Shown in pieces: positions 15,848-18,113 of a stretch of 64,000 nt of DNA. Numbering within the stretch: the first letter of the stretch is position 1; each line of letters opens with the position of its first letter. The DNA comes from Aporhodopirellula rubra (GTDB lineage: Bacteria; Planctomycetota; Planctomycetia; Pirellulales; Pirellulaceae), in assembly GCF_014192335.1 (NCBI RefSeq), contig NZ_JACHXU010000004.1, positions 124,001 through 188,000 on the forward strand. The letters are read 5' to 3'. The position numbers were made by a program, and so were the translations under genes. Under the pieces are notes generated by a model. That model searched no databases, was not told the DNA's origin, and saw only the letters and a program-made list of their open reading frames with translations.

Positions 15848-16258
15848 TTACTCGCTCGGCCATCCGTCGGTCAACACGCGTTTCATCGCGTTGAGAGTCT
15901 CTTTGCTGACATGATGCTCGATCCCCTCGCTGTCGGTCGCCGCCGTCGCCGCGCTGACTCCCAACCGCCTCAAAAAGCCCTCGACGATTTCATGCCGCTT
16001 GCGCGATTGCGTGGCCAATCGTTTGCCCGCCGCGGTCAACTCGATCGGTTGGTAGGGTTCGGTCACAACCAGCCCATCACGCTGCAATCGCCCGATCGTG
16101 TTGTTAACCGTTGCGTGCGTCACAGCGAAGTGTTTCACCAAATCCATCGCCCGGCAAACGCCTCGCTCGGCGATCGCGTCGGCGATCGCTTCGACGTAAT
16201 CCTCTGCCACCTCGCTGGCATGGTCTAACCGAATTCGCTGATATGTCTTCGAAGGCAA
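15848..16258 (-). CDS. mntR: Manganese-responsive regulator MntR (DtxR family)
   Basis: The protein resembles the enterobacterial type of MntR. 'AEDYVEAIADAIAERG' precedes a winged helix ('CRAMDLVKHFAVTHATVNNTIGRLQRDGLV'), then 'LTAAGKRLATQSRKRHEIVEGFLRRLGVS' and 'DSEGIEHHVSKETLNAMKRVL'. The last two segments supply the metal-binding and dimerisation residues of the family (E in 'RHEIVE', E and H in 'EGIEHHVS'). No ATG is available. I use a TTG at 16258 (about 136 residues), and the frame is open to a TTG at 16315. It is divergent from a DUF1559 operon, and the region between them holds two palindromes resembling MntR boxes. This suggests it controls that operon and possibly itself. Confidence 0.87.
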   Translation of the reverse strand: MPSKTYQRIRLDHASEVAEDYVEAIADAIAERGVCRAMDLVKHFAVTHATVNNTIGRLQRDGLVVTEPYQPIELTAAGKRLATQSRKRHEIVEGFLRRLGVSAATAATDSEGIEHHVSKETLNAMKRVLTDGWPSE

Positions 16259-16405
16259 GCTATTTTTCCCTTTGGGCCAAAATGCGGTGCAATCACCACC
16301 CAGAACTCTCGACAAAGTGAACTTTCTATCTTAGCGAATTGCCCTTTCCTGCTGAATCCCCTTGATATCCCCATCCCGCTCGAGTATTTTCGACCGAAAC
16401 CAAAA

Positions 16406-16421
16406 GTTAGCTCGTGCTAAC
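16406..16421. promoter_or_regulatory. Predicted MntR operator 1
   Basis: Palindrome AGTTAGC-TCGT-GCTAACT (18 bp when the outer A/T pair at 16405/16422 is included). The arms are identical to those of a second palindrome at 16538-16555. The TAGC-N4-GCTA core and 4-nt spacer match the E. coli MntR box (ACATAGC-N4-GCTATGT) as established for mntH. Lies about 147 nt upstream of the chosen mntR start. Confidence 0.7.
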
Positions 16422-16537
16422 TCGCTTCGAAAACATAACTCGATCACGAACACAATCCCGCCGCGTCTGAAAGCGACGTCGTCCTGCTAAGGCTTCGAAC
16501 AATGGCGATTTCAGTGTTCGTTTTTCCAAGCAGCTCG

Positions 16538-16555
16538 AGTTAGCCAATGCTAACT
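16538..16555. promoter_or_regulatory. Predicted MntR operator 2
   Basis: Palindrome AGTTAGC-CAAT-GCTAACT, with the same arms as operator 1 and a different spacer. It ends 38 nt upstream of the ATG of the DUF1559 gene, where a repressor would occlude the promoter. Confidence 0.72.
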
Positions 16556-16593
16556 TTTTCGCAACATTATCTTTCATTGCCCCCGAGGACTCA

Positions 16594-17760
16594 ATGCATC
16601 CAAACCTCACAAAGGCCTGCTGCCACACTCTTTGGTTCCCCCGAATCCGAGACTCATCCAGCCCAGCGTCCGAACGTTTTGGCCGACACGGAAACTACCG
16701 GTATGCGTTCACCCTGATCGAACTTTTGGTCGTGATCGCGATCATCGGCGTTTTAGTCGGACTGCTACTACCCGCCGTTCAGGCCGCCCGTGAAGCAGCC
16801 CGGCGAATGTCATGCAGCAACAACCTGCGGCAGGTCGGATTGGCCGCTCAGAACTACCACGCCGCCTACCAACGCTTCCCCGCGGGTTATGTTTCTCACC
16901 CAACGACCGATGGGTCGGCCCCGGTGTCAGTGATGATGGATCCGGTCACATGGGATGCGGGTCCCGGATGGGGATGGGCGGCTGGCCTGCTGCCATTTGC
17001 CGAAGGAAACTCGGTTCACGATGGACTTCGTTTCGACCAGCCGATTTGGGCAGATGCAAACCGAGAGACCATCGCGGCAACCATCCCGATGTTTCTCTGC
17101 CCGAGCGCCACCGGCGGTGACGAACCATTCGACGTCGTCAACGAGGCCGGCAATCCACTCGTGATCGCGGGGCAGCCGATGCGGTTGGGACGCAGTCACT
17201 ACGTCGCCAGTCATGGCCAGGAAAGCTGCTGGGGTGAATGCGGTTCGGCCGCAACCGGCGAAGTGTTCACGAACATTTACACCTCGGCCACCGAAATCGT
17301 TCCGATCAACGGAGACGCAGCCAACGTTGCGGACGGTCCGTTCTTTCGAAATTCGAAAACGAAATTCCGCGATGTGCTCGACGGCACGTCGAACACGATT
17401 TTCTTTGGCGAACACAGTTCGGCGCTGAGCGAGAAGACGTGGGTCGGGGTCGTTCCCGGTGCGTTCACCCATCCTCGCTTTACGTCCCCCGAGAACGGCC
17501 CCGACGCTGCGGCGACACTCACACTCGTGCATGCGGGACCATCCGGAGGCGAACTCGACATCACAGGCAGCCCGATCATCCACCCGGTCAACTTTCCGAC
17601 CTACCACGTCGGTCAGATGTATTCCGAACACCCCGGTGGCGGATTCGTTTGCCTCGGAGACGGTTCGGTTCGGTTCGTCACCAATTTCATTGACCTGTTC
17701 TTGTGGGCGGAACTGTCCAGCATGAACGAACACGAAGTCATCGACTGGGAAAAACTCTAA
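16594..17760 (+). CDS. DUF1559 domain-containing protein, predicted MntR-regulated
   Basis: The protein has 388 residues and starts at ATG 16594, the only in-frame ATG before the pilin-like segment. The leader is unusually long (37 residues) and the residue before the conserved Phe is Ala, not Gly ('RYAFTLIELLVVIAIIGVLV'), which is atypical for prepilin peptidase cleavage. The 'LLPAVQAAREAARRMSCSNN' helix, 'TKFRDVLDGTSNTIFFGEHS' and 'HPGGGFVCLGDGSVRFVTN' are the DUF1559 landmarks. It belongs to a different subfamily from the other two copies in this window. Its stop codon overlaps the start of a small membrane-protein gene. Two predicted MntR boxes precede it and mntR is divergent, so a role in manganese homeostasis is an inference. 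Confidence 0.92.
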   Translation: MHPNLTKACCHTLWFPRIRDSSSPASERFGRHGNYRYAFTLIELLVVIAIIGVLVGLLLPAVQAAREAARRMSCSNNLRQVGLAAQNYHAAYQRFPAGYVSHPTTDGSAPVSVMMDPVTWDAGPGWGWAAGLLPFAEGNSVHDGLRFDQPIWADANRETIAATIPMFLCPSATGGDEPFDVVNEAGNPLVIAGQPMRLGRSHYVASHGQESCWGECGSAATGEVFTNIYTSATEIVPINGDAANVADGPFFRNSKTKFRDVLDGTSNTIFFGEHSSALSEKTWVGVVPGAFTHPRFTSPENGPDAAATLTLVHAGPSGGELDITGSPIIHPVNFPTYHVGQMYSEHPGGGFVCLGDGSVRFVTNFIDLFLWAELSSMNEHEVIDWEKL

Positions 17761-18113
17761 TGGCACGTAATCGCCCTGATAAACCTCGCCGAAACAACAG
17801 CCTTCGAATCGGCGCCGTGATCGTCGTCGCGTTGCTCGCCTTCGGTATCGGTTGGTGGCTATCGCAAAAGCCTGTCGTACTGAATGAGCGAGAATACGAT
17901 ATCACGATCGCGCTCTACCGAGTCTGCAATCAACGCAGCATTGAAGGCCTCACACAGATTGAAAATCATCTCAACGAAGCCCTATCTACACAGCATGCCA
18001 CTAACCCATCCCACATCGCGTTGATGGCAATGGTCGAACAGGCAAAAGCCGGCCAGTGGCGAGAGGCGGCCATCGCGTGTCGCCAAGCTCTCGATGACCA
18101 AGTCAAGCGTTGA
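17760..18113 (+). CDS. Small single-pass membrane protein coupled to DUF1559 gene
   Basis: The protein has 117 residues from ATG 17760, sharing the last base of the upstream TAA (TAATG overlap), which implies translational coupling. A basic cytoplasmic N-terminus (RNRPDKPRRNN) leads into one membrane helix at about 16-34 ('IGAVIVVALLAFGIGWWLS'). An extracytoplasmic helical domain follows ('YRVCNQRSIEGLTQIENHL', 'ALMAMVEQAKAGQWREAAIACRQALDDQ') that looks like one TPR-like helix pair. I do not recognise a family. Its position makes it the obligate partner of the MntR-linked DUF1559 protein. Confidence 0.78.
   Translation: MARNRPDKPRRNNSLRIGAVIVVALLAFGIGWWLSQKPVVLNEREYDITIALYRVCNQRSIEGLTQIENHLNEALSTQHATNPSHIALMAMVEQAKAGQWREAAIACRQALDDQVKR

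Follow-up and report, generated by a model that had tools for sequence, protein, structure and literature searches.

Two palindromes with identical arms, set between a gene for an E. coli-type MntR repressor and a divergent DUF1559 operon in Aporhodopirellula rubra, raise the question of what this regulator controls in a planctomycete and what the controlled product might do. DUF1559 proteins form one of the largest planctomycete families, with 74 genes in R. baltica (PMC2754498) and 68 paralogues in P. limnophila (PMC10632474), and the available portions of these two papers assign them no tested role. An earlier sequence-only reading of the 64,000-nucleotide stretch analyzed here (the window) had noted this expansion, which holds in our genome as well (112 PF07596 matches), and had proposed that MntR represses the operon.

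Our results lead us to regard it as probable that the DUF1559 operon is repressed by Mn-MntR and encodes an envelope module for manganese acquisition. The parts of this reading differ in strength: Mn-dependent binding and repression of the operon by MntR are very likely, while a role of the module in manganese capture or uptake, which we infer from gene context, is moderately likely. Specifically, Mn(II)-loaded MntR would bind both boxes and block the operon promoter, and would be released when manganese is scarce, allowing expression. The DUF1559 protein, with its pilin-like N-terminal helix and a large outer domain carrying clade-specific His, Asp, Glu and Met residues, would then work in the envelope together with its small membrane-anchored partner, the two forming a module for manganese acquisition that captures the metal and hands it over to MntABC, MntH or some other importer. 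The case is built on what can be read from the DNA, namely, the identity of MntR, the putative operators, their overlap with predicted promoters, the two-gene module and, in some relatives, gene rows with importers. If true, the module would be a new kind of manganese uptake component and provide the first function for any DUF1559 protein, and a pilin-like part would join the short list of such components. With a regulator, a likely metal signal, an operator, a partner and candidate ligand residues, one DUF1559 member becomes testable in culturable strains, and one branch of the family appears to gain its first testable role, in manganese uptake.

Regulator, box pair and two-gene module

Table 1. 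Features of the mntR-DUF1559 locus (window positions).
Feature	Position	Strand	Details
mntR, E. coli-type MntR repressor	15848..16315	-	NF008273; ends at 15848, extends at least to 16255; start uncertain (TTG at 16315 or about 16258)
Candidate mntR promoter	16328..16356	-	-35 TTCAGC 16351-16356, 17-bp spacer, -10 TAAGAT 16328-16333
DUF1559 promoter	16362..16390	+	-35 TTGATA 16362-16367, 17-bp spacer, -10 TATTTT 16385-16390
MntR box 1	16405-16422	.	AGTTAGC-TCGT-GCTAACT; starts 15 bp past the end of the -10 element
MntR box 2	16538-16555	.	AGTTAGC-CAAT-GCTAACT; 38 bp before the DUF1559 start codon
DUF1559 pilin-like protein, 388 aa	16594-17760	+	PF07596, PF07963, TIGR04294; stop TAA 17758-17760
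Small membrane-anchored partner, 117 aa, single-pass	17760-18113	+	ATG from 17760; start overlaps DUF1559 stop (TAATG)

The mntR product scores 170.4 bits against NF008273 (curated cut-off 153) and shares 54 residues with E. coli MntR over 121 aligned positions. EDYVE, RHE and EGIEHH are conserved in its alignment with the B. subtilis protein (1on1); the corresponding EDYxE/RHE/EGIEHH motifs contain the metal ligands of B. subtilis MntR (D8, E11, H77, E99, E102 and H103). We infer that manganese, rather than iron, is the MntR signal here.

As first described from the sequence alone, the palindromes lie between mntR and the divergent DUF1559 gene (Table 1), with identical arms (AGTTAGC/GCTAACT) and different spacers. 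Both contain the TAGC-N4-GCTA inverted repeat that is the format of the E. coli MntR box, and the E. coli arms given in that description, ACATAGC/GCTATGT around a 4-nt spacer, are indeed those at K-12 mntH (ACATAGC-CTTT-GCTATGT). Given that the neighboring gene encodes an E. coli-type MntR and that E. coli boxes share this format, the palindromes look like MntR operators. The same type of regulator is involved in the two systems, and in both the boxes are often doubled: in E. coli K-12, this is so at two of three places, the mntS-mntR interval (ATATAGC-ACAG-GCTATAT and ATATAGC-TATT-GCTAAAA) and upstream of mntP (ATTTAGC-CAAA-GCTATGT and ACATAGC-TTAG-GCTATAT), with mntH having a single box. Further, E. 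coli mntR also stands divergent to a small gene, mntS, with the double box between them. However, the three outer bases differ (AGT here, ACA in E. coli), and a pilin-like DUF1559 operon takes the place of mntS or mntH as the target here.

It is the position of the palindromes, not their number, that is special. Within the window, the two boxes, both exact, are the sole matches to AGTTAGC-N4-GCTAACT at up to three mismatches (0.69 expected; at least two in 13 of 100 shuffles), and no other exact copy exists in the whole 8.55-Mb genome; the reversed pattern, our control, likewise occurs twice in this genome, so the raw number of palindromes proves nothing. Across 60 genomes, this one included, we counted 9 exact sites versus 8 for the reversed pattern, and the genome search suggested in the sequence-only reading placed all 9 of them, spread over 6 genomes, shortly upstream of an E. 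coli-type mntR. The flanks of the boxes mirror each other (CGAGTTAGC-N4-GCTAACTTTT), which sets box 1 and box 2 in opposite orientation, and a T run borders each site on one side, in opposite directions.

The DUF1559 protein matches PF07596 (190.7 bits), PF07963 (28.7 bits) and TIGR04294 (32.1 bits). Like other members of the DUF1559/SBP_bac_10 family, it combines the family profile and the H-X9-DG motif with a pilin-like N-terminus, where PF07963 covers a pilin helix and cleavage motif and prepilin cleavage would be expected before F39. Pilin chains match it over this N-terminal part, and its structure model (pLDDT 91) yields matches of weak pilin likeness. In the family tree, the protein belongs to one clade that is distinguished within PF07596 by an MntR-type operator and by its own invariant His, Asp, Glu, Cys and Met residues, which are rare in paralogues; of the other DUF1559 genes in this genome, the 30 with the best matches all lack a box. 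A second DUF1559 gene in the window (12358-13590), 3 kb off, groups with ordinary paralogues and has no intact-core box before it.

The last base of the DUF1559 stop codon is shared with the ATG of the single-pass partner, the overlap that had been noted from the sequence. The partner has no Pfam or NCBIfam match (E up to 0.001) and 23 sequence matches, itself counted, and it is present in 77 of 80 DUF1559 relatives (the best 80 of 117); the two genes are a conserved two-gene module. At locus L255, a permease-like open frame of 526 aa begins beside the end of the small partner gene.

Manganese import and the possible role of the module

In two genomes, the DUF1559 module and genes for a planctomycete MntABC(D) importer form one gene row. 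The row of Bythopirellula polymerisocia consists of mntR and, divergently, closely spaced genes for DUF1559, the small protein, a ZnuA-type binding protein, an ABC ATPase and a pair of ABC-3 permeases, and is preceded by one standard and one altered box; the sequenced piece examined ends within the second permease gene. The L271 row is the same up to the first permease and lies behind two boxes. Of the 80 surveyed loci (the best 80 of 117), some with short flanks, no others have an mntA match. One further row with importer genes, making three in all, is that of genome G053, where DUF1559, the small protein and an Nramp gene (428 bits) follow TTTTTGA-N4-TCAAAAA; the G053 DUF1559 protein lacks several of the clade residues.

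Planctomycete MntABC(D) importers also resemble the module in having the same kind of box at the same place beside mntR, although the DUF1559 and small proteins had no ABC, ZnuA or Nramp importer domain in the Pfam search. Specifically, mntABC adjoins mntR, with like boxes, in G045, in G331 and at the second mntR copy of G007. The expectation that the motif would mark manganese transporters was thus borne out at these three mntABC loci and in B. polymerisocia, but not at this genome's own Nramp gene or its one ZnuA-type gene, neither of which has an intact-core box upstream. In three loci (L280:7106-8386, L271:7094-8503 and L078:5576-6999), a Mn-type ABC permease carries a C-terminal Fe_dep_repr_C domain (the metal-binding domain of DtxR), as if a metal sensor were built into the transporter.

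In ten chosen genomes, TGTAGC-N4-GCTACA has 11 sites (25 for the reversed control), of which seven lie between mntR and DUF1559, two between mntR and mntABC (G045), and one at a DUF1559 pair of G331. The last, doubled with a near copy, precedes a Fe/Mn superoxide dismutase gene in G005, and this double box (L292, G005:C4:619814; L312) suggests that the dismutase may belong to the MntR regulon there.

This dismutase gene, as a likely non-transporter target of MntR, lends some weight to the rival that we take most seriously, in which the operon is Mn-repressed by MntR as we propose but its product does not handle manganese and instead serves as a surface or secretion (pseudopilin) adaptation when Mn or Fe is short or under oxidative stress. 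The pilin likeness of the DUF1559 protein fits that view too. However, the rows that the module shares with mntABC(D) or Nramp in three relatives, and metal-type residues peculiar to the clade, point to manganese handling, and we consider such a surface adaptation unlikely, with an appreciable chance nonetheless.

The nearest parallel in the literature is the TBDR-pTFP locus that MntR controls in Stenotrophomonas maltophilia, described in the available portion of PMC13217887. There, too, two lineage-restricted, extracytoplasmic genes lie near mntR, with an MntR box between the -10 and -35 elements, and metal acquisition has been proposed; unlike the DUF1559 operon, that locus encodes a TonB-dependent receptor and a thioredoxin-fold protein (PMC13217887). 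Among the matches listed in our search of open-access papers, none ties DUF1559 to MntR.

Box position relative to the promoters

Scored with E. coli-like weights, the promoter facing DUF1559 (11.3) is the highest of the DUF1559-directed promoters in the locus and has counterparts in G008, G010, G012 and G025. In this locus and in those four genomes, the first box lies just past the -10 element; if transcription starts near 16397, box 1 would span about +9 to +26. In several distant genera, the box instead falls right within the spacer between the -35 and -10 elements of a sigma-70-like promoter reading towards DUF1559 (e.g., TTGACA-N16-TACAAT in G032), where its right arm provides the -10 element.

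As the palindrome is symmetric, the mntR direction serves as a fair internal control. In 28 loci, a box overlaps the best DUF1559-directed promoter in 27, versus 6 in the mntR direction, and random box placement gave a mean of 7.0 and never reached 27 in 1999 trials. In the wider survey, with 59 mntR-adjacent loci having a matrix box, the overlap is 58 of 59 versus 17 of 59 (random placement, mean 16.8, maximum 31 in 500). The loci are related and the two sets have species in common, so these counts are not independent trials. The overlap of box and promoter at DUF1559 is repressor geometry, and it is consistent with the repression by MntR that had been claimed for the operon.

The same geometry bears on two further rivals. 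First, MntR might activate the operon at manganese excess, the module then serving manganese tolerance; B. subtilis MntR does both, repressing importers and activating exporters, according to the available portion of PMC11275975. Nevertheless, boxes in the -35/-10 spacer or just past the -10 element, rather than upstream of the promoter, and rows shared with importer genes argue for repression of an acquisition module, and we deem activation very unlikely.

Second, the boxes might serve mntR autoregulation only, with DUF1559 as a chance neighbor. The boxes do adjoin mntR, and this locus is one of the 6 of 28 just mentioned, with box 2 overlapped by the highest-scoring leftward promoter, so mntR may be autoregulated in addition to control of DUF1559; the candidate mntR promoter in Table 1, the second-best leftward one (6.5), lies to the left of both boxes, and several relatives, e.g., G008, have the same or similar elements. 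As an exclusive explanation, autoregulation is highly improbable, given the preference of the promoter overlap for the DUF1559 direction, the use of a single DUF1559 clade in a genome with so many family members, and double boxes at DUF1559 operons distant from mntR. A same-clade DUF1559 operon that does not adjoin mntR follows a double box in both G007 and G005, and in G331, where mntR stands beside mntABC elsewhere, a double box precedes a pair encoding DUF1559 (335 bits against the clade profile, 213 against the paralogue profile) and a small lipoprotein. The box thus follows DUF1559.

At L079 (G005:C35), the DUF1559 gene divergent to a second copy of mntR does not belong to the clade. Two boxes are present here as well, and this may be an independent recruitment of a DUF1559 gene.

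Conservation in the order, the phylum and a wider survey

Within the order, we examined the best copy of an E. coli-type mntR in each of 27 genomes (loci L012-L038): a DUF1559 gene is divergent to mntR in 24; mntABC takes that place in G045, and neither does at the best copies of G007 and G005. At least one box with an intact TAGC/GCTA core is present in 22 of the 24 loci, and the boxes of G025 and G029 have one half-site changed. The outer arms covary on both sides (AGT/ACT, TTG/CAA, GTT/AAC and so on) around a constant core. This covariation across genera, together with the fixed position in the promoter and the mere two exact copies in the genome, leaves a negligible chance that terminators, a small repeat element or mere accident account for the palindromes, notwithstanding their one-sided T runs and a count of exact sites not clearly above that of the reversed pattern.

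Outside the order, the mntR-DUF1559 neighborhood is rare. E. coli-type MntR occurs in 41 of 392 genomes of the phylum survey, and among 34 mntR loci from it, the module adjoins mntR in one genome outside the order (G364), with an mntA match within the retrieved stretch in 17. With the looser pattern TTAGC-N4-GCTAA, 18 of 39 sites in 13 genomes of the genus lie elsewhere.

For the wider survey, GTDB species genomes were scanned with a 13-row alignment of the C-terminal part of the clade, and the best 80 of 117 relatives were considered: mntR is divergent next door in 62 and not adjacent in 14, and 4 lie on contigs too short to tell. The sequence-only reading had hinged on conservation of the motif in orthologous mntR-DUF1559 intergenic regions, and 59 of the 62 regions contain a box (at least two in 51; shuffled expectation, 0.15 loci). 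A weight matrix in place of the rule again found boxes in 59 (at least two in 42), missing different loci; the three missed by the rule (L240, L241 and L270) have paired sites with one changed half-site, as judged post hoc.

Of the 14 relatives without an adjacent mntR, five, one of which is the G005 operon already described, have boxes, at least two in each (shuffled expectation, 0.35 loci). The standard box is absent in the other nine, of which three (L251, L253 and L256) have altered boxes and four (L237, L247, L273 and L278) have the palindrome TTTTTGA-N4-TCAAAAA; in L233 and L255, neither was clear on inspection. We give an even chance to a broader reading, in which the MntR-controlled DUF1559 clade would be a metal-binding, pilin-derived envelope device for manganese acquisition, working with its small partner, and control by a metal repressor would perhaps be kept through TTTTTGA-N4-TCAAAAA where E. 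coli-type MntR is missing.

Besides those four loci, L307, L308, L309 and L021 have this palindrome upstream of the DUF1559 gene or a related one. Most of these loci, L021 being an exception, have no E. coli-type mntR next to them, and the palindrome may be the operator of a longer DtxR-family protein of 220-250 aa.
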